From Xanthobacteraceae bacterium 501b (GTDB taxonomy: Bacteria > Pseudomonadota > Alphaproteobacteria > Rhizobiales > Xanthobacteraceae), in contig KB899087.1 of the NCBI GenBank assembly GCA_000378025.1, positions 2,914,001-2,978,000 on the forward strand: DNA of 64,000 nucleotides, given 5' to 3'. Below, piece by piece: positions 48,745-57,664 of this stretch (position 1 is the stretch's first letter; each line of letters starts with the position of its first letter). A program made the translations under genes and the position numbers. The notes under the pieces are model-generated. The model saw only the letters and a list, made by a program, of their open reading frames with translations, did no database searches and had not been told where the DNA came from.

Positions 48745-48781
48745 CAAACCCGGGGCCGACCGGAAAAAACCCGTGCCGACG

Positions 48782-48806
48782 GGAATAAGCGGCGCGGCAG
48801 GGAGTC
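48782..48806 (+). promoter_or_regulatory. ECF-type promoter element A
   Basis: GGAATAA, 15 bases, GTC. The same boxes and spacing occur at 53806–53830 and, reversed, at 53692–53716 beside an ECF sigma operon. Here it precedes only a short open frame at 48859, and about 100 bases around it resemble the leader of the DUF305 gene. Confidence 0.6.
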
Positions 48807-48858
48807 CAACCTTCAGACGCCGCCAATAGACGCCGCTCGGCCGCCGAAGGAGAACGCC

Positions 48859-48936
48859 ATGCGACACGCCCTCTCGCCTGCCTCGGCCGCAGGGCTGGTC
48901 TCCGGGTGCACCGTGGAACACGCGCGGCGCGATTGA
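48859..48936 (+). pseudogene. Short open frame or gene remnant behind ECF promoter A
   Basis: An ATG follows GAAGGAGAACGCC and reads 25 residues, starting [21 protein letters not shown] resembles a lipobox, so this may be a decayed lipoprotein or secreted-protein gene. The leader matches that of the DUF305 gene (53782–53878). The frame ends soon after at a TGA, so I treat it as a remnant, though a real small peptide is possible. Confidence 0.4.
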
Positions 48937-49109
48937 TCGGCTGACGAGCGCCACCGGCAGCGCCGACCCGGCATCGACACCTACCTCACTAAGTATTGGA
49001 CATGTAAACGCGGAAGTCGTTTCCGCGATTGGCGCTACGCGCGGCCGTCACAACAGCGGATCACGCAGACGTGCCGATAATGATATCGCGTACAAAAAGG
49101 AAAAGCCTC
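48937..49109. other. Leader region of the secreted hydrolase
   Basis: This 173-base stretch is AT-richer towards its end (CTCACTAAGTATTGGACATG, then GATAATGATATCGCGTAC) and probably holds the hydrolase promoter. I see no ECF-type element of the GGAATAA form here. Confidence 0.4.
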
Positions 49110-49901
49110 ATGAATACAAAGACCAGAAACATCCTTGCCGCCACCGCAGCCGCCGCAGCCGTCATCGGCATGGAGCCGGCGCGCGCGGCCGACCCCATCC
49201 CGCAGAGCCAGGCGGTCAAGAATGTCGTGCTGGTGCACGGCGCCTTTGCCGACGGCTCGGGCTGGCGCGGCGTCTATGACCAGCTGACCCAGCGCGGCTA
49301 CCGCGTCACCATCGTCCAGAACCCGCTGACCTCGCTCGCAGACGATGTTGCGGCCACCACGCGCGCGCTGGAACGGCAGAGCGGCCCGGCCATTCTCGTC
49401 GGGCATTCCTGGGGCGGCACGGTCATTACCGAAGCCGGCGACAATCCGAAGGTGGCGGGGCTGGTCTATGTCTCCGCGCTCTCGCCCGACGCGGGAGAAA
49501 CGACCGGCCAGCAATATGAAGGCTTTGCGCCGGCCACGGACTTCGTGCTCGACAAGGCGGAGGACGGTTTCGCCTTTGTCGACCGCGAGAAGTTCAAGGC
49601 CGGCTTCGCCCATGACGTCAGCGATCAGGATGTCGCCTTCATGCGGGACTCGCAGGTACCCATCAACCTCTCCGCGTTCGGCACGAAGCTGACGAGGGCG
49701 GCCTGGCGCTCCAAGCCGAGCTGGGCGGTAATCGCGACCGAGGACAAGGCGTTCGACCAAGCGATGCTGCTGCACATGGCCAAGCGGATCGGTGCCGACA
49801 TCACCACGGTCTCCGCCAGCCACGCGCTCTTCATGACCCAGCCCAAGGTCGTCGCCGACACGATCGACAAGGCGGCGCGGACGGTTTCCAAGCAGCCGTG
49901 A
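49110..49901 (+). CDS. Secreted alpha/beta-hydrolase
   Basis: This 263-residue protein has a signal peptide (residues 1–27, ending ARAAD) and an alpha/beta-hydrolase fold. It shows the oxyanion segment VLVHGAFADGSGWRGVYDQL, the nucleophile elbow VGHSWGGTV, a likely acid in VIATEDKAFD and the catalytic histidine in SASHALFMTQP. This small group is close to plant-type esterases and methyl-esterase-like hydrolases. The ATG at 49110 follows AAAAAGGAAAAGCC. The substrate is unknown. Confidence 0.88.
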   Translation: MNTKTRNILAATAAAAAVIGMEPARAADPIPQSQAVKNVVLVHGAFADGSGWRGVYDQLTQRGYRVTIVQNPLTSLADDVAATTRALERQSGPAILVGHSWGGTVITEAGDNPKVAGLVYVSALSPDAGETTGQQYEGFAPATDFVLDKAEDGFAFVDREKFKAGFAHDVSDQDVAFMRDSQVPINLSAFGTKLTRAAWRSKPSWAVIATEDKAFDQAMLLHMAKRIGADITTVSASHALFMTQPKVVADTIDKAARTVSKQP

Positions 49902-49914
49902 CCCATCGATGATG

Positions 49915-49964
49915 CCGCCTTGTCGGGGTCGGCAGCTCCACGGGGCGCCGCCCCGACAAGGCGG
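49915..49964 (+). terminator. Strong hairpin after the hydrolase gene
   Basis: CCGCCTTGTCGGGG (49915–49928) pairs perfectly over 14 bases with CCCCGACAAGGCGG (49951–49964), with a 22-base loop. It starts 13 bases after the stop. No T run follows, so it may act with Rho or protect the 3' end. Confidence 0.65.
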
Positions 49965-50126
49965 GTCCCTGCCGTGGCGCGGCGACCGCCCGGTTGCGTC
50001 CTCTATCGTTTCGATCAAATCCAGCAACTCTCCCATTTTTTGCTGCGCGCCCTATAGTGCGGGATCCGCGCCCCTTCCCGACGCCTTCGCCGGGGTGGGA
50101 CGCCGATCTCCGCGTGTGGGAAGGCG

Positions 50127-51281
50127 ATGGGAAAGACGGACAAGGACATCCTGACCACGGCTGAAACTGCCAAAATACTCGGCGTGTCGGTCCGTACCGC
50201 GCAGCTGCTCATCGAGGGTGGCTCCGTGCCGTCGTGGAAGACACCGGGCGGGCACCGCCGGGTCTACCGCGCCGATGTCATGGGACTGATTGAGCGGCCC
50301 GCACCGGGCGCATCCGGCGCGCCGCTCGCGTCCGCCACCGTCATCATTGTCGCTGCATCCGAACAGCTTGCCCATTATGATCGCCTGTTCGCCGGCATTG
50401 CCGAATGCACGGTGGAGGCGGTCGACAATGTCCACCGGGCCCTGTTTGCCATCGGCTCCGTCCGGCCGCACGCCATCATCGTCGATCTTGAGCCGCCCGA
50501 TGCCGAGCGGGTGAGGCTGCTGCACAGCCTGTCGGTCAACCCGTCGCTGGGCCACAGCCGGATTCTCGCGGTCGCGGCCACAGGCACGATCGCCAGCGCC
50601 GATCTGCCCGGCCGTGTCGTGCCTGTCGAGACCGCCGAACAGGCGGCCGCCGCGATACGTGTGTCCCTGACCGACACGGGTGTGCCGACCCCGCCGCCCG
50701 CCGAGACGCTGTTTCCGATCGCGCTCAATGAGAGCCAGAGGCTGGTGGCGCTCGAGCGCTCGGGACTGTTGGACACGCTTCCCGAGGAAGCGTTCGACCG
50801 GCTGACGTGGCTGGCCGCCCGCACTCTCGACGCGCCGATCGCGCTGCTGACCCTGCTCACTCCCACGCGGCAATGGTTCAAGTCGCGTATCGGCGTTGAT
50901 GCGCCGGAAACCCCGCGCAGCTGGGCCTTCTGCAATCATACGATCCTGCAGAAGGGTGTGTTCTCGGTGGAGGACCTGCCCAGCGATCCGCGCTTTGCCG
51001 CCAATCCGGCCGTCGCGGGGGATCTCGGCTTCCGCTTCTACGCCGGCGCCCCCGTCCACGACAATGAGGGCTTCACCGTGGGGTCGCTGTGCGTCATCGA
51101 CCGGAGGCCGCGCACGCTGGACGATGGCGAGAGGCGGGCGCTGATGGCGCTTGCGGCGCTGGCATCGGACGAGGTGCGGCTGCGCTCCACCGAGCGGCAG
51201 TTGCGGGACGCGCTTCGCACGGCAGAGCGGCAGACACCGGGCCCAGGGCCCCATCGCGCCGGTCGCGCCAGCCGGGCCTGA
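50127..51281 (+). CDS. HTH (excisionase/MerR-like) – receiver-like – GAF regulatory protein
   Basis: This 384-residue protein has three parts. Residues about 8–60 are an excisionase/BldC-type DNA-binding helix (TTAETAKILGVSVRTAQLLIEGGSVPSWKTPGGHRRV shown in part as TAETAKILGVSVRTAQ). Residues about 70–185 resemble a receiver fold (ATVIIVAASEQLAHYD, AIIVDLEPPDAERV). Residues about 205–355 are a GAF domain (LLDTLPEEAFDRLTWLAA, APVHDNEGFTVGSLCVIDRRP). It looks like a one-component sensor regulator. Its targets and signal are unknown, and the neighbours give no clue. Confidence 0.85.
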   Translation: MGKTDKDILTTAETAKILGVSVRTAQLLIEGGSVPSWKTPGGHRRVYRADVMGLIERPAPGASGAPLASATVIIVAASEQLAHYDRLFAGIAECTVEAVDNVHRALFAIGSVRPHAIIVDLEPPDAERVRLLHSLSVNPSLGHSRILAVAATGTIASADLPGRVVPVETAEQAAAAIRVSLTDTGVPTPPPAETLFPIALNESQRLVALERSGLLDTLPEEAFDRLTWLAARTLDAPIALLTLLTPTRQWFKSRIGVDAPETPRSWAFCNHTILQKGVFSVEDLPSDPRFAANPAVAGDLGFRFYAGAPVHDNEGFTVGSLCVIDRRPRTLDDGERRALMALAALASDEVRLRSTERQLRDALRTAERQTPGPGPHRAGRASRA

Positions 51282-51323
51282 AGGTGGAGACCGATCTCAC
51301 AGAGGACGGCCGGCGCGAGGACG

Positions 51324-52940
51324 TCAGAGGTCGTAAGTCCGGCGGATCATTCCGGCGGCACGCTCGCCGATGACGGCGCAGGGGGCCTGCGTGTTTCCGG
51401 TGGTGACGCGCGGCATGATGGAGGCGTCGGCGATGCGCAAACCCTCGACCCCATAGACATTGAGAGAGGCGTCCACGACCGACATCGCGTCGCGGCCCAT
51501 CTTCGCCGTGCAGCTCTGGTGCCAGTAGGTGACGGCGGATTCGCGCACGAACTGCTTCATCGCCTCGCCCTTGAGCGGGCCCGGCATCGCCTCGCCCTTC
51601 ACCAGAGGCTGGAAGGCCCGGGCATTGCCAAGCTCGCGACAGAGCTCGATGCAGGCGAGTGCCGTCTCCATATCGGCCGGGTCCGACAGCATGTTCGCGT
51701 CGATCTCGATCGCGGACAGCGGATCAGCGCCGGTGAGGCGAAGCCGGCCACGGCTGCTTGGCCGCGCCAGCCCGGCGAACATCGTCCACCCCTGCGCGGG
51801 CACACCCCGTGCCGCCGTTCGCTCGCTCGGCACCGGGAACTCGGCCTGGCAGAACAGCAGGTCGGGCGATTCAAGCTCGGGACGAGTCTTCCAGTACAGT
51901 TTCGCCTCGCTGCCATTATTGCGTGGCGCGAGGGCGTCGCGGTACTCCCAGATGCAGCAGAAAGCCGTGTGATCCTGCAGGTTCGCACCGACGCCGGGCA
52001 GATGCTGGCGGACGGGGATGCCATGTCGGCCAAGCTCCGAGGCGTCGCCGATCCCCGAATACATCAGAACCTTTGGCGTATGGATGGCGCCGAGCGAAAG
52101 GATCACCTCCGCACTGGCGCAAATGCGCGAGACTTCTCCGTCGCGAACCACTTCGATCCCGACGGCGCGCCGGCCTTCGAAGATCACCCGGCGCACCGTC
52201 GTTCCGGTCATGACCGTTAGGTTGGGCCGGTCCATCCAGGGCCGCGCATAGGCGCGGAAGAGGGAGTGGCGTCGCCCATCCCGCACCAGCATGTCGGAGA
52301 GGGCGACGCCTCCGGCGCCTTCCATCATCGCGCCATTGGGATGATCGAAGCGCGGGATGCCGATTTCGGTTGCGGCATCGAGCAGGGCGAGCGCGACCGG
52401 GCTGGGATCGCGCGGCGGCTGCACCCACACCGGGCCCGATGTGCCGCGATAGTGCGGATCGGGCGTGCCCTGCCAGTTTTCGATTCCACGATAGATGTCG
52501 AGTACCGCCGGGTAGCCCCAAGCGGGATCGCCGCTCTCCTTGGCAAAGAAGTCCCAGTCGCTGCGGTGCCCGCGCGACCATACCATCACATTGATGCTGG
52601 ACCCGCCGCCGAGGCCCTTGCCCATCGACATCGACAGAGTCCGGCCGTCGAGGTGCGGATTGGGCGTCGCCTGAAAGCCCCAGTCACGCGCGCTGCCGAG
52701 ATTGAGCGGCCACTGCGACGGGTCGAGCACCGTCTCCGCGTCGTCGTCGCCCCCCGCCTCGACGAGGAGCACGTCGACATCGGGGTTCTCGGCCAGGCGC
52801 CGCGCCACCACCGAGCCGGAAGAGCCGGCGCCGCAGACGATGAAATTGTACTGCGCCGGCGGTCTTTCCCTCAGCCGGTGCTGGTTCTCGGCGGCTCGCC
52901 TGGCGAAATCCAGCGCCTCGTCCTTGTCCATCTCGCTCAT
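51324..52940 (-). CDS. GMC-family FAD oxidoreductase (choline/alcohol dehydrogenase type)
   Basis: This 538-residue flavoenzyme has the FAD-binding start YNFIVCGAGSSGSVVARRLAE, the GMC signature 1 (MGKGLGGGSSINVMVWSRGH), signature 2 (LSLGAIHTPKVLMYSGIGD) and the C-terminal catalytic site YWHQSCTAKMGRD and TTGNTQAPCAVIGERAA, with the histidine and asparagine. It probably oxidises a primary alcohol or choline-like compound. No betB, betT or partner cytochrome is next to it. The upstream 290 bases are AT-rich just before the start. Confidence 0.9.
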   Translation of the reverse strand: MSEMDKDEALDFARRAAENQHRLRERPPAQYNFIVCGAGSSGSVVARRLAENPDVDVLLVEAGGDDDAETVLDPSQWPLNLGSARDWGFQATPNPHLDGRTLSMSMGKGLGGGSSINVMVWSRGHRSDWDFFAKESGDPAWGYPAVLDIYRGIENWQGTPDPHYRGTSGPVWVQPPRDPSPVALALLDAATEIGIPRFDHPNGAMMEGAGGVALSDMLVRDGRRHSLFRAYARPWMDRPNLTVMTGTTVRRVIFEGRRAVGIEVVRDGEVSRICASAEVILSLGAIHTPKVLMYSGIGDASELGRHGIPVRQHLPGVGANLQDHTAFCCIWEYRDALAPRNNGSEAKLYWKTRPELESPDLLFCQAEFPVPSERTAARGVPAQGWTMFAGLARPSSRGRLRLTGADPLSAIEIDANMLSDPADMETALACIELCRELGNARAFQPLVKGEAMPGPLKGEAMKQFVRESAVTYWHQSCTAKMGRDAMSVVDASLNVYGVEGLRIADASIMPRVTTGNTQAPCAVIGERAAGMIRRTYDL

Positions 52941-53106
52941 GTCGCAAACTCCTTTGAATGGCGACGCGGTATCAATTTTATCAAATTCATCAAATATAGC
53001 TTTTGTGCTAAATCGCTGCGGCGGGCCGTGAACCGAGACAACAGGGCCTCGTTGCCGTAACGGCGGGCCCCGCTCGTGACCGCGCTTCGTCGTGCGCCGC
53101 CGATCA

Positions 53107-53137
53107 ACCGGCCTGAGGCGCCGTGCGTCTCAGGCCG
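53107..53137 (-). terminator. Hairpin between the NTF2-like and GMC genes
   Basis: CCGGCCTGAG and CTCAGGCCGG form a perfect 10-base-pair stem with an 11-base loop. It follows the leftward NTF2-like gene by 95 bases and precedes the GMC gene, so it could isolate the two units. No strong T run follows. Confidence 0.5.
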
Positions 53138-53232
53138 GCATGGGTGTGGGGGTGTCGGCCGTTCGGCGGGGGCCTATGCCTCGCCGGCTCGCCCGTCCGG
53201 GGGCGAGAACGCCCCCTGCGCGATCGGCCCGC

Positions 53233-53658
53233 TCAGTTCGTCGCGGCCGGATTGACCTGCCAGATTTCGTCGACCAGCTTGTCGCCGCGATAGAGCAGCA
53301 CGTAGCGCACCTTGACGGTGTTCGTGCCGGCGAAGGTGGCGTCCACCGTCACGGTGCCGCCCTTGGGATTGGCCGCCTCCACCGCCGCGGCGATGGTCGC
53401 GTTCTGGGCGCCCTGGGCGGCGAAGAAGGTCGACCAGACCTCCTTGATCTTGGCGGGCTGGCTATAGGTGCCGTCGAGCGGGCCGCCGACCCAGTGCAGG
53501 GTCGCGCCGGGGCCATAGGCCGCCGACACGCCCGCGAGGTCGCCGCTGGCGATCGCGGTGATGCGCGACCTGGCGAGGTCCTCGGCGGATCCCGCCAGCG
53601 CGGCCGAGCCGGGAGCGGCGATAAGGACGAACGTGGCGGCGAGGGTTGAAAGGCGCAT
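53233..53658 (-). CDS. Secreted SnoaL/DUF4440-like (NTF2 fold) protein
   Basis: This 141-residue protein has a signal peptide (residues 1–23, ending ALAG) and an NTF2-like cone fold, seen in SRITAIASGDLAGVSAAYGPGATLHWVGGPLDG and VRYVLLYRGDKLVDEIWQV. Such domains bind small molecules or act as isomerases, and none of this group's functions is clear. It starts at 53658 with a leftward ECF-type promoter (53692–53716) just upstream, so it is probably co-regulated with the divergent DUF305–sigma operon. Confidence 0.8.
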   Translation of the reverse strand: MRLSTLAATFVLIAAPGSAALAGSAEDLARSRITAIASGDLAGVSAAYGPGATLHWVGGPLDGTYSQPAKIKEVWSTFFAAQGAQNATIAAAVEAANPKGGTVTVDATFAGTNTVKVRYVLLYRGDKLVDEIWQVNPAATN

Positions 53659-53691
53659 GTACCTGAATCTCCAATGTGGCCTGCACCGGGA

Positions 53692-53716
53692 GACTCGTGC
53701 CGCGCCGCTTTATTCC
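53692..53716 (-). promoter_or_regulatory. ECF-type promoter element C (leftward)
   Basis: On the minus strand the element is GGAATAA, 15 bases, GTC, the same as elements A and B. The spacer GCGGCGCGGCA is nearly that of element A. It lies 34 bases before the start of the NTF2-like gene. Confidence 0.7.
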
Positions 53717-53805
53717 GCCGGACAGGGCCCACGTTCCGATTTTCGCGTCGGACGGGGGGGCGTCGGGGGCGGGGGCGAAGGGCCGGAGAAAATTCGCGCC
53801 CGGGC

Positions 53806-53830
53806 GGAATAATCGCGCCGGCTGCGAGTC
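53806..53830 (+). promoter_or_regulatory. ECF-type promoter element B (rightward)
   Basis: GGAATAA, 15 bases, GTC, placed 40 bases before the DUF305 start. It diverges from element C by about 90 bases. It probably serves the DUF305–beta-propeller–sigma–anti-sigma operon, so the sigma factor would regulate itself. Confidence 0.7.
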
Positions 53831-53870: not shown

Positions 53871-54380
53871 ATGCGACAGCGACACCCATCTCGTGTCGGC
53901 GTGCTGCTCGCGCTCTGCCTGGCCGGCAGTGCGGCCGAGGCGGGCGACCACAGCCATGGCGCCGCTACGCCTTCCACAACCGGCGCCGAATCTCCGTTTC
54001 TCGCCGAGAACGCCGCCGCCATGGACAAGATGATGGCGGAGATGGAGGTGACGCCGACCGGCGACATCGACGCCGACTTCACGGCGATGATGATCCCGCA
54101 CCATCAGGGCGCCATCGACATGGCGGTCGCCTATCTGCGCTACGGCCAGAACCCGCAGCTGCGCCGCCTCGCGCAGGAGATCGTCATCGAGCAGCAGCAG
54201 GAGATCGCCGCGATGCGGCTTGCCCTCGGCCAGCCCCTGCCGCCTTCCGCGCCGGCGCCGACCCTGCCCGAGGCCGGCGCTGCCCATGACCCTTCCGCCA
54301 TGCCGCAAAACACCCTGTCGCCCCGCCCGATATCCGCCAGCACCATGGCGATGCCGGCCCTGCCGACCCCGGTGAAGTAG
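53871..54380 (+). CDS. DUF305 family secreted protein
   Basis: This 169-residue protein has a signal peptide (residues 1–24) and the DUF305 core DADFTAMMIPHHQGAIDMAVAYLRYG, then QEIVIEQQQEIAAMRLAL. The HH pair and the methionine-rich N-terminus (MDKMMAEME) suggest copper or another metal binding in the periplasm, as is often proposed for the family. The ATG follows GAAGGAGAAAAATCC. It is first in a four-gene unit and lies 10 bases before the beta-propeller gene. Confidence 0.9.
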   Translation: MRQRHPSRVGVLLALCLAGSAAEAGDHSHGAATPSTTGAESPFLAENAAAMDKMMAEMEVTPTGDIDADFTAMMIPHHQGAIDMAVAYLRYGQNPQLRRLAQEIVIEQQQEIAAMRLALGQPLPPSAPAPTLPEAGAAHDPSAMPQNTLSPRPISASTMAMPALPTPVK

Positions 54381-54390
54381 GAACCGTCCC

Positions 54391-55848
54391 ATGAACAGAT
54401 CCGTCCTCACCGGCCTGCTCGCCAGCGCCCTGCTCTCCTGTGCGGTGCCTGCCTTCGCCGGACAGGCGCCATTCGCCGCCGCCGCACCCGACATTCCGCT
54501 GAGCCGCCGCGACCGTGTCTATGCCGCCGAGCAGTTCTCCAACACCATCTCCGTCACCGATCCCGCCTCCAACCGGCTGGTCGGCATCATCCGGCTGGGC
54601 GAGCCGCAGCCGATGAACTTCAGCCCGCTCTACAAGGGGCAGGTGCTGGTGCATGGCATGGGCTTCGCGCCGGACGCCAAGACCCTCGTGGTGGTGTCGA
54701 TCGGCTCGAACGCCGTCACCTTCATCGACACCGCCACCAATGCGGTGAAACACACGACCTATGTCGGACGCTCGCCGCACGAGGCCTTCTTCACGCCTGA
54801 CGGCAAGGAGGTCTGGGTGACGGTGCGCGGCGAGGACTACATCGCCGTGCTCGACAGCGCCACCTATGAGGAGAAGACGCGCATCAAGGTGCCGAACGGG
54901 CCGGGCATGCAGATCTTCTCGCCCGACGGCACATACGGCTATGTCTGCTCTTCCTTCATGCCCGAGACGGTGGTCATCTCAGTCGCCGACCACGCGATTA
55001 TCGGCCATGTGAAGCAGGCGAGCCCGTTCTGTCCCAACATCGCCGCGACGCCGGACGGCAAGCAGGTCTGGCTCACGCTGAAGGACATCGGCAAGACGCA
55101 GGTGTTCAACGCGCAGCCGCCGTTCGAAATCATCAAGACGCTCGACACCGGCCCGCTCACAAACCACGTCAACTTCGTCCACAAGGCCAATGGCAGCTTC
55201 GCCTATGTGACAATCGGCGGGCTCAATGAGGTCAAGGTGTTCCGCACGGACGACTTCATGCCTGTGGCGACGATCCCGGTCGGCAAGCTGCCGCACGGCC
55301 TCTGGCCGTCGGGTGACGGCTCGCGCGTTTATGTCGGGCTGGAGAACGCCGATGCGCTGGCCACGATCGACACGCTGACAAACAAGGTGATTGCCACCAT
55401 CCCGATCGGCCAGGCGCCGCAGGCGGTCAACTATGTGCCCGGCGCCGTGCCGGAGGGCGAGGGCACGCAGAACCTCCAGCCGCTCGGCGTCGCGGGACAG
55501 GCGGCCCATCTCAGCCTGACCAAGGACGGCAAGGCCGCCGACAAGGCCCCGACCAGCATCACGCTGTTCGACCAGGGTCTGATCCAGGTCCTGCAGGCGT
55601 CAGTCACCGGGCTCGCGCCGAAGAAGCCGCATGTACTGGCGCTGGCCAGCCAGCCCGACGGCACGGGCGCGATCGAGCCGCTCTCGGCCTTCATGTCCAA
55701 TCCCGCCGGCTCGGCGATCGTCAACGCCGCCGGGCCGATCCGCCAGATCGTGCAGAACGAGGCCAAGGGCCAGCGCCGCTATCTCGTCATCACGGAGGGC
55801 ACGGTCGCGCAGCCCGGCGCCGTCGTCCAGCGCCAGGCGCTGGAGTGA
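54391..55848 (+). CDS. Secreted YncE-like (YVTN) beta-propeller protein
   Basis: This 485-residue protein has a signal peptide (residues 1–24, ending AFAG) and repeated blades such as DRVYAAEQFSNTISVTDPAS, NAVTFIDTATNAVKHTTYVG, DYIAVLDSATYEEKTRI and DALATIDTLTNKVIATIPIG. YVTN propellers act as scaffolds and are often found beside metal or redox proteins. A last domain of about 100 residues after the propeller is not recognised. It sits between DUF305 and the ECF sigma gene, so it is probably part of the same envelope response. Confidence 0.86.
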   Translation: MNRSVLTGLLASALLSCAVPAFAGQAPFAAAAPDIPLSRRDRVYAAEQFSNTISVTDPASNRLVGIIRLGEPQPMNFSPLYKGQVLVHGMGFAPDAKTLVVVSIGSNAVTFIDTATNAVKHTTYVGRSPHEAFFTPDGKEVWVTVRGEDYIAVLDSATYEEKTRIKVPNGPGMQIFSPDGTYGYVCSSFMPETVVISVADHAIIGHVKQASPFCPNIAATPDGKQVWLTLKDIGKTQVFNAQPPFEIIKTLDTGPLTNHVNFVHKANGSFAYVTIGGLNEVKVFRTDDFMPVATIPVGKLPHGLWPSGDGSRVYVGLENADALATIDTLTNKVIATIPIGQAPQAVNYVPGAVPEGEGTQNLQPLGVAGQAAHLSLTKDGKAADKAPTSITLFDQGLIQVLQASVTGLAPKKPHVLALASQPDGTGAIEPLSAFMSNPAGSAIVNAAGPIRQIVQNEAKGQRRYLVITEGTVAQPGAVVQRQALE

Positions 55849-55914: not shown

Positions 55915-56445
55915 GTGAATAACGAGATGGTGCGCCTTATCGAGCCGCTGATCCCGGCATTGCGGCGATATGCGCGCGCGCTGATGCGCGAGCGGACGGC
56001 GGCGGACGATCTGGTGCAGGATTGTCTGGAGCGTACCATCAGCCGCTGGCACCAGCGGCGGCCGGGCGAAGACCCACGGGCCTGGATCTTCACCATCCTG
56101 CACAATCTCGCCATGACGCGGCTGCGCCGGACGACGCAGCGCCCGATCCATATCGGGCTCGACGACGCCGATCCGGCGAGCTACGCCTCCGCGGCGCGAC
56201 AGGAGGACGGGCTGCGCCATCGCGACCTCGTCAATGCGCTGGCGCAGCTGCCGGATGAACAGCGGACGGTGCTTCTGCTGGTCACGGTCGAGGAACTCTC
56301 CTATGCCGACGCGGCGCAGGTGCTGGGCGTGCCGATCGGCACGGTCATGTCGCGCCTGTCGCGTGCCCGCGAACGCCTTGCGAAGCTGATGTCCGCCGAG
56401 CCGCGCGCAGCCCGCCCGTCGCCCCATCTCCGGAGCGTGAAATGA
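55915..56445 (+). CDS. ECF sigma factor
   Basis: This 176-residue sigma factor has region 2 (ADDLVQDCLERTISRWHQR) and region 4 (LSYADAAQVLGVPIGTVMSRLSRARERL). It opens with GTG at 55915 after AAAGGAG. It overlaps the anti-sigma gene by 4 bases and follows the beta-propeller gene, so it is most likely in the operon led by promoter B. It should recognise the GGAATAA, 15 bases, GTC element seen three times in this stretch; this link is inferred. Confidence 0.92.
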   Translation: MNNEMVRLIEPLIPALRRYARALMRERTAADDLVQDCLERTISRWHQRRPGEDPRAWIFTILHNLAMTRLRRTTQRPIHIGLDDADPASYASAARQEDGLRHRDLVNALAQLPDEQRTVLLLVTVEELSYADAAQVLGVPIGTVMSRLSRARERLAKLMSAEPRAARPSPHLRSVK

Positions 56446-57221
56446 ACCCTCTTCCGATCACCGAGGACGACCTGAACGGCTTCGTCGACGGCACGCTCAC
56501 TCCCGAACGCCGCGCCGAGGTGAGCGCCTATCTCGACGCTCATCCGCATATTGGCCGACGCATCGCGGTCTATGGCGAGCAGCGCGACATGCTGCGCGAC
56601 GCCTTTGCGCCTGTCATGGACGAGCCGGTGCCGACGGAACTCGACCTGTCGCGCATGATCGCGGAACGACGCCTGCCCCGGCAGGCGCCGCGCTGGGCGA
56701 TGGCGGCGGCGGCGGTGCTGCTGCTGTCGGTGGGGGCCGCCGGTGGCTGGTCGCTGCGCGACCTGAGGCCCCCGACCTCCGAAGGTGTCCAGGCGCTCGC
56801 CCGCGAGGCGGCGGCGAGCTATGCGACCTATGTGCCCGATCAGGTGCGGCCGGTCGAGATCCGGGCCAGCGATCGCGACGTGCTCGCGGCCTGGACCGCC
56901 AAGCGCATCGGCCGTCCGATCGGCATTCCGGACCTGACGGCGGCGGGCTATCGCCTGATGGGCGGGCGCGTGGTGCCGACCGAGCACGGTCCTGCCGCGC
57001 TGTTCATGTTTGACGATGATCGCGGAACGCGCCTCGTGATGCTGGCGCGGCCGATGAAAGCCGATCCGGCCCTGCCGATGTCGCCCCATACCGAAGGCGC
57101 ACTCAACGGCTTCGCCTGGGCCGATGACGGCCTCGGCTACAGCCTCGTCGGAGCGGTGGCCCCGGACCGGCTGCATCCGCTGGCAGATGAGCTGCGCCGG
57201 CAGATACGCAGCGAGGCCTGA
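56442..57221 (+). CDS. Membrane anti-sigma factor of the ECF sigma
   Basis: This 259-residue protein has a cytoplasmic part with EDDLNGFVDGTLTPERRAEVSAYL, a membrane span at about residues 85–103 (AMAAAAVLLLSVGAAGGW) and a periplasmic domain of about 150 residues. There is no HxxxCxxC zinc motif, so it is not a classical ZAS anti-sigma factor. The ATG overlaps the sigma stop. Periplasmic stress or a metal signal would free the sigma factor; the signal is not known. Confidence 0.88.
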   Translation: MNPLPITEDDLNGFVDGTLTPERRAEVSAYLDAHPHIGRRIAVYGEQRDMLRDAFAPVMDEPVPTELDLSRMIAERRLPRQAPRWAMAAAAVLLLSVGAAGGWSLRDLRPPTSEGVQALAREAAASYATYVPDQVRPVEIRASDRDVLAAWTAKRIGRPIGIPDLTAAGYRLMGGRVVPTEHGPAALFMFDDDRGTRLVMLARPMKADPALPMSPHTEGALNGFAWADDGLGYSLVGAVAPDRLHPLADELRRQIRSEA

Positions 57222-57347: not shown

Positions 57348-57617
57348 GAGGATGGTCCGAACGTCACCGCCGAGAGCCTGAAGCGCTTCTCTGAGGTCGC
57401 CCGCGCCAGGCTACGGATGGAAGCCGGGGAGCATCACCGGGATCATCTTCGCGCGCTGGCCCAGCGCGTCGAGGTGGTGAGCAAGTCGGAAATTCGGCTG
57501 ATGGGGAAGTCGGACCTTCTGCGCACGCGGGCTGCCGCATCAAGCGTAGGAGCGGCGGCGAACGACGTTCGCAGTTTTGTACCGAAATGGCGCGCCCGAA
57601 GAGATTCGAACTCCTGA
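57348..57617 (+). pseudogene. Remnant of a large serine recombinase (3' end)
   Basis: The frame reads NVTAESLKRFSEVARARLRM, then HHRDHLRALAQRVEVVSKSE and IRLMGKSDLLRTRAAASSVG, the C-terminal pattern of large serine recombinases. It ends PKWRARRDSNS, and those last codons are the 3' end of the tRNA-Arg gene on the other strand. No catalytic N-terminal domain is left, so the gene is decayed. It marks an old integration event. Confidence 0.78.
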
Positions 57618-57664
57618 CCCCCAGATTCGTAGTCTGGTGCTCTATCCAGCTGAGCTACGGGCGC
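57588..57664 (-). tRNA. tRNA-Arg (anticodon ACG)
   Basis: The minus strand folds as a standard tRNA. The acceptor stem is GCGCCCG with CGGGCGC, the anticodon stem is CCAGA/TCTGG around loop CTACGAA (anticodon ACG), and the T arm is AGGAG-TTCGAAT-CTCTT. CCA is encoded at 57588–57590. The 3' end overlaps the recombinase remnant, so the gene served as an attachment site and was restored on integration. Confidence 0.95.

Follow-up and report, generated by a model that had tools for sequence, protein, structure and literature searches.

A probable small ECF26-type sigma regulon in Xanthobacteraceae bacterium 501b, with a divergent NTF2-like gene and a copied duf305 promoter

In Xanthobacteraceae bacterium 501b, a stretch of 64,000 nucleotides (contig KB899087.1 of assembly GCA_000378025.1, positions 2,914,001 to 2,978,000; referred to as the window) carries three copies of the element GGAATAA-N15-GTC beside an operon for an extracytoplasmic function (ECF) sigma factor, which raises the question of whether these copies are promoters of that sigma factor and, if so, which genes they serve. 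Our answer, given with high confidence, is that the locus is a small autoregulated stress regulon of the ECF26 (RpoE1) type, in which periplasmic stress would free the sigma factor from a membrane anti-sigma factor and the sigma factor would then fire its own operon, the gene of a secreted NTF2-like protein and, less surely, the gene of a secreted alpha/beta hydrolase.

Three promoter elements and an ECF sigma operon

The three exact elements listed by a first-pass annotation, made from the letters alone, were all recovered, at 48782-48806 (+), 53692-53716 (–) and 53806-53830 (+), as were the gene order and the divergent pair of elements between the NTF2-like gene and the operon. The element at 53806 precedes the operon, which encodes a secreted DUF305 protein (53871-54380, +), a secreted YncE/YVTN beta-propeller (54391-55848, +), the ECF sigma factor (55915-56445, +) and the anti-sigma factor (56442-57221, +, its start overlapping the sigma stop). 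The element at 53692 faces the divergent NTF2-like (SnoaL_2) gene (53233-53658, –), and that at 48782 stands ahead of the hydrolase gene (49110-49901, +). Against an expectation of 0.01 exact copies in the window, three were found, a count reached by 0/100 shuffles. The spacers had also been described as alike, which is right for two of the three: a GCGGCGCGGC core, shifted by one base, is common to the elements at 48782 and 53692, and the third spacer (53806) reads TCGCGCCGGCTGCGA. All three elements end in GAGTC, the base preceding GTC being A, versus C in the published ECF26 consensus (–35 GGAAT, –10 CGTC; PMC6527743).

The first-pass annotation had proposed looking for the element across the whole genome and before orthologous sigma genes. 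Across the genome (5,108,628 bases) not many random matches but five exact copies were found, three of them in the window, and the backwards pattern gave three. The two exact matches outside the window, one of them inside an open reading frame (ORF) on a small contig, are at chance level, and, in a comparison of sequences rather than places, neither has an identical copy among the exact matches found in 29 other genus genomes. That chance level could be taken to mean that, in a G+C-rich genome, the sites in the window cluster by chance as well, which we regard as next to impossible: the window expectation is far too low, and the conservation in related loci described below refutes it.

Four sites elsewhere in the genome were considered as additional regulon sites and rejected. 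Those at C2:20845 and C1:1238615 sit within ORFs, as does C1:2806169, although the latter also lies about 180 bases before a same-strand ORF for a cupin-type regulator. The site C1:2845225, 69 bases before a LysR-type gene, was treated as chance because no identical copy exists in the other genus genomes. The sequence GGAATAATTCTCCGGCCGCCACGTC, which recurs in several genus genomes, sigma-bearing and sigma-less, was set aside as probably conserved coding sequence. A further YVTN-type propeller gene of the same genome (L212:1133-2173, –) has a GGAATAA-N16-GTC match inside it, on the opposite strand.

Conservation was followed in the best 80 of at least 459 related-sigma loci from a scan of GTDB genomes. 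With the seventh base left free and up to 450 bases before the sigma operon searched, the element was found upstream in 75/80 loci (71 with N15, 4 with N16), compared with 0/80 for a reversed-pattern control and 9/1343 for other 470-base windows from the same loci. DUF305 precedes the sigma gene in 60 of these loci and a propeller in 63. Within the genus, the sigma gene (called at E 1e-40) was found in 15 of 30 genomes, and a divergent pair of exact elements occurs in 12/15 genomes with it and in 0/15 without it (Fisher 1e-5, a test that counts related genomes as independent).

Elements elsewhere in these loci precede genes for an SBP_bac_11 protein (L083), CopC (L071), DJ-1 (L075), a catalase-like protein (L064) and, in Methylobacterium, a peptide of about 90 residues; such single cases of other genes may be chance. 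In nine Methylobacterium loci (L021, L023, L026, L029, L031, L037, L040, L042 and L046) an element on the minus strand points away from the sigma gene, and in L021, L026, L040, L042 and L046 it is followed by an ORF for a small peptide with a GQETGGPARELI-N end; the single such peptide that was searched had no Pfam match.

The sigma factor itself (176 aa) matches Pfam Sigma70_r2 and r4_2 only, with no extra domains. It is 90% identical to the best match of that scan, from Ancylobacter radicis, where the gene order and both divergent elements are the same, and 84% identical to the sigma factor of locus L189, taken as the Snov_0992 locus since the operon order matches. By this sequence kinship it is assigned to ECF26 (RpoE1 type).

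This places the operon next to a published one. In Ancylobacter (Starkeya) novellus, Snov_0990 to Snov_0993 encode a DUF305 protein, a YVTN propeller, SnRpoE1 and an anti-sigma factor (PMC6527743), the genus and the four-gene order being the same as here. Reporters in E. coli show strong activation of the duf305 promoter (Snov_0990) by SnRpoE1, and the 270-base region directly upstream of the SnRpoE1 gene is inactive (data not shown in that paper). On tetrathionate, expression of Snov_0991 is high and SnRpoE1 is probably active (PMC6527743). L189 carries GGAATAA-N15-GTC before duf305, as the window does; its duf305-propeller gap measures 8 or 11 bases, depending on the start codon, versus 12 in PMC6527743. 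Unlike the window, L189 (19.5 kb) has no hydrolase gene and no third element. Farther away, RpoE1 and RpoE4 of S. meliloti are ECF26 members that respond to sulfite-generating compounds, with similar boxes, an autoregulated sigma/anti-sigma operon and a small regulon, as proposed here (PMC3511301, PMC6180224). By our own count the S. meliloti rpoE1-operon and rpoE4 promoters read GGAATAA-N16-GTC, versus N15 here (PMC6180224), and the rpoE1 operon starts with the 'lipoprotein 15' gene SMc01418, unlike the DUF305-propeller start here; that annotation also ruled out an NTF2-like identity for SMc01418.

Promoter cross-activation between RpoE1 and RpoE4/SigE is on record for both S. meliloti and A. 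novellus (PMC6527743, PMC3511301). Conceivably, then, the main user of the elements is another ECF26-like sigma factor, of the SigE type that serves sulfite oxidase genes, and the present one is secondary. This is very improbable, because the next-best sigma factors in the genome are only 38 and 43% identical, and three sulfite-oxidase-like genes lack a GGAAT box of the same kind within about 1 kb upstream. At the sulfite-oxidase-like gene of L203, two same-strand GGAAA...GTC matches both lie inside ORFs.

Some observations weigh against an autoregulated ECF26 unit with the NTF2-like gene as a member. In the genome itself, relaxed patterns matched 203 and 111 times and their reversed controls 36 and 35 times, an excess that base composition may explain; the short boxes are thus weak evidence by themselves. 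The 80 loci are not statistically independent, many being from Bradyrhizobium or Methylobacterium, and the element was not found in five of them (L014, L047, L064, L080 and L085); a contig end leaves just 52 bases upstream in L014, and the other four are not so cut. In the genus, genomes G009, G021 and G025 have a more distant sigma gene and no divergent element pair, and among genus loci with a distant sigma, L195 has one N15 element and L194 and L196 have N16 elements. The anti-sigma factor, which has no cysteine and is kept in related loci, has no Pfam match and scores 29.7 bits with the NCBIfam antisigma profile (cut-off 100), its putative membrane helix having been judged by eye. Finally, an NTF2-like gene is near the sigma gene in only 6/80 of the wider loci, divergent in L006, L008, L010 and L011 and within the operon in L083 and L085, which limits its partnership to some lineages.

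The autoregulated ECF unit is nevertheless strongly supported by the conservation of the element, by the way it tracks the sigma gene across the genus, and by what published reporter and expression experiments have shown for the ortholog. On this point the earlier interpretation is right in outline and largely published for the same genus, and the new content is modest. Its wording of an 'envelope-stress or metal' response is less apt, as is its statement that the genes have no assigned function: the family is ECF26/RpoE1, sulfur-compound inducers are published, and the DUF305 protein resembles CopM.

The following sequence of events would fit the ECF26 regulon. The sigma factor of a resting cell would be bound by the membrane anti-sigma factor until a periplasmic stress, by analogy with relatives probably a reactive sulfur oxyanion, sets it free to start transcription at GGAATAA-N15-GTC promoters. 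Firing of the operon promoter would provide positive feedback together with its own brake, the anti-sigma factor. The second promoter would lead to the divergent secreted NTF2-like protein and the third, less surely, from the copied duf305 promoter to the secreted alpha/beta hydrolase.

The divergent NTF2-like gene

With the core of the regulon known, the locus is mainly a clean further case of that system. It adds a candidate divergent target, the gene for a secreted NTF2-like protein (141 aa), conserved in the genus and absent from the main text of PMC6527743, which mentions neither an NTF2-like/SnoaL or Snov_0989 gene nor a divergent partner. Among the matches listed by a literature search for ECF sigma factors with NTF2-like/SnoaL proteins, none was on the ECF26 group, judged by title.

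Besides the window, 17 genus sigma loci were examined. In all 12 with a sigma factor at least 79% identical (from 11 genomes), the NTF2-like gene is divergent from duf305 and both elements are present; the five loci with a more distant sigma factor (L194 to L198) have no NTF2-like gene. Across 13 NTF2/duf305 intergenic regions, that of the window included, 20/20 box positions are invariant versus 43/162 of the others (Fisher 6e-11).

Used alone as a query against 297 genomes of the order, the NTF2-like protein found a match in seven, its own genome among them. Five of the other six have the gene beside a related sigma/anti-sigma pair. Loci L206 to L209 show the order NTF2-sigma-anti-sigma divergent from duf305-propeller, with GGAAT-N16-19-GTC (a loose pattern) pointing each way; no match to that pattern was found in L210, and no sigma gene lies near the NTF2-like gene of L211 (34% identical). 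In the lineages that have it, the NTF2-like gene thus keeps its promoter upon gene reshuffling. The NTF2-like fold was assigned from Pfam and from the secondary structure of a structure model (mean predicted local distance difference test, pLDDT, of 88.6).

In two related loci a hydrolase paralog (about 50% identical) adjoins the NTF2-like gene on the same strand (L182:9866-10549, –; L188:7962-8675, +) and perhaps shares its operon.

A copied duf305 promoter ahead of a hydrolase gene

The element at 48782 differs from the other two in its surroundings. An alignment of the region 48751-48890 to the start of duf305, from its promoter and leader through the ribosome-binding site to the start codon, scores 91, versus a maximum of 62 for shuffled sequences (n=200), and the part after the box, taken alone, still scores 39 versus a maximum of 34 in 500 shuffles. 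As a query, the same region also recovers the duf305 promoters of genomes G004, G005, G019 and G020. The alignment and this recovery indicate that the site was copied from the duf305 promoter and did not arise independently. It is followed by a long leader (48807-49109, +) that comprises the copied duf305 5′ leader, ribosome-binding site and ATG (48859), beyond which only short or unconserved ORFs are found, and then by the gene of the secreted alpha/beta hydrolase (Abhydrolase_6 by Pfam; signal peptide judged by eye), a candidate regulon member.

Such a copy might be a dead relic that controls nothing. We take this as a real possibility, if short of an even one: the copied start opens nothing conserved, the hydrolase start is about 300 bases away, and genome G029 has the hydrolase without the element. 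The element and the hydrolase occur together in four species (genomes G015, G017 and G027, and the window; 23 candidates scored per genome), where the element is invariant at 23/25 positions and its boxes at 10/10. By comparison, 20/60 upstream bases, 29/52 leader bases and 5/48 bases of the copied coding start are invariant, and the difference between the element and the upstream and leader bases together (49/112) is significant (Fisher 1e-5), which speaks against decay. The shared stretch behind the leader is also kept (114/174), so that conservation is partly simple kinship; the first hydrolase-gene bases are invariant at 34/41.

Conservation in these four related species, though they are few, speaks for site 48782 as a promoter still in use. 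An independent hint that the hydrolase family belongs to the regulon, and a further point against a relic, comes from L012, a metagenome-assembled genome of the Rhodospirillaceae, in which a hydrolase relative is divergent from the duf305 operon and has its own element. The site thus adds a case of a sigma promoter that was copied and kept before another gene, one not described in the papers searched.

Between the copied promoter and the hydrolase gene, at about 48907-49060, a stretch common to the four species resembles the remains of another gene. The genes between the hydrolase and the NTF2-like gene encode an HTH-GAF protein (50127-51281) and a GMC oxidoreductase (51324-52940), which hold the same place in the related loci L182 to L184 and L186. 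In L012, hydrolase and GMC genes stand together next to the duf305 operon.

The inducing signal and possible copper handling

Relatives of the sigma factor point to sulfur oxyanions as the signal and the families of its presumed products to copper, two readings that may both hold. Sulfite, taurine, thiosulfate and tetrathionate are the published inducers of relatives (PMC6527743, PMC3511301).

The DUF305 protein (Pfam PF03713, 66.8 bits, cut-off 27) matches CopM structures in the PDB by sequence (E 3.8e-16). With the NCBIfam CopM profile it reaches 85.2 bits, below the cut-off of 90, and it is therefore filed as CopM-like only, not as CopM. In a set of 78-79 sequences of at least 40% identity, ten CopM-like residues (M51, M54, M55, M58, M73, M74, H77, H78, M84 and M115) are each kept in at least 73. 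CopM of Synechocystis binds Cu(I) and is, like the protein here, a secreted DUF305 protein with an HH motif and many Met; it has two DUF305 domains and adjoins CopRS, whereas here there is one domain, beside an ECF sigma gene (PMC4335983).

The propeller, too, has conserved residues. In 83 sequences (L006 and L187 probably being one locus counted twice), H88, H130, H259 and H302 are identical in every sequence that covers them, even at 27% identity, and C214 is kept in 77/83. In a nearer set, the best 120 of 8000 candidates, H88, H130, C214, H259 and H302 are invariant and M173 varies once. The protein has seven blades and a C-terminal beta domain, for which no Pfam match was found. In a structure model (pLDDT 86.6), the innermost strand of six blades has residue 88, 130, 173, 259, 302 or 344 as its second or third residue, and residue 214 lies two residues before the innermost strand of the remaining blade. 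One residue per blade would thus face the axis, namely His, His, Met, Cys, His, His and Gln, a possible metal ring as far as the model can be trusted. YncE/YVTN propellers (1l0q, 3vgz), hydrazine synthase beta, NirF/NirN and NosZ have the same seven-bladed fold, unlike the protein here at these ring positions.

Among the matches listed by Foldseek, YVTN propeller 1l0q came first, with many ordinary propellers and with NosZ at rank 43. A lactonase-type nitrous-oxide reductase was rejected as an identity for the propeller, the NCBIfam L-NosZ score being 55 bits against a cut-off of 700. P0259, an apparent DUF305-propeller fusion, was not used because its internal stretch looks like a signal peptide and it may be misread.

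Conserved His/Met/Cys at a like position in six of the seven blades, together with the CopM-like DUF305 protein, suggests copper handling, and these conserved possible metal ligands could explain the role of the DUF305-propeller pair. The unit might then answer copper, or copper along with sulfur oxyanions, instead of a sulfur oxyanion alone, which would also suit the element before the CopC gene of L071. We judge this rather unlikely, as copper is not named where PMC6527743 and PMC3511301 report the inducers of relatives, the CopM cut-off was missed, the ring depends on a model, and the CopC site may be chance. No paper came up in a literature search that combined DUF305, beta-propeller and copper, and neither the blade residues nor the CopM-like residues of this DUF305 protein are described in the papers searched.

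More speculatively still, the RpoE1/ECF26 module as a whole could be a periplasmic copper-handling system, made up of a CopM-like carrier, a propeller with a His/Met/Cys metal ring across six blades and, in some lineages, the NTF2-like partner. Its inducers would be sulfur oxyanions, acting through the binding or mobilisation of Cu(I), and its regulon would grow by copying of the duf305 promoter before neighbours such as the hydrolase gene. We offer this tentatively and think it unlikely to hold in full.

Downstream of the related sigma genes of L007 and L084 lies a second propeller gene (L007:9483-11336 and L084:9590-11322; 27-28% identical) with a DUF305 gene. Both second propellers keep all four ring histidines, and the L007 unit has its own GGAATAA-N15-GTC. 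In the window, the only tRNA found, a tRNA-Arg (anticodon acg; 57588-57664, –), lies downstream of the anti-sigma gene.

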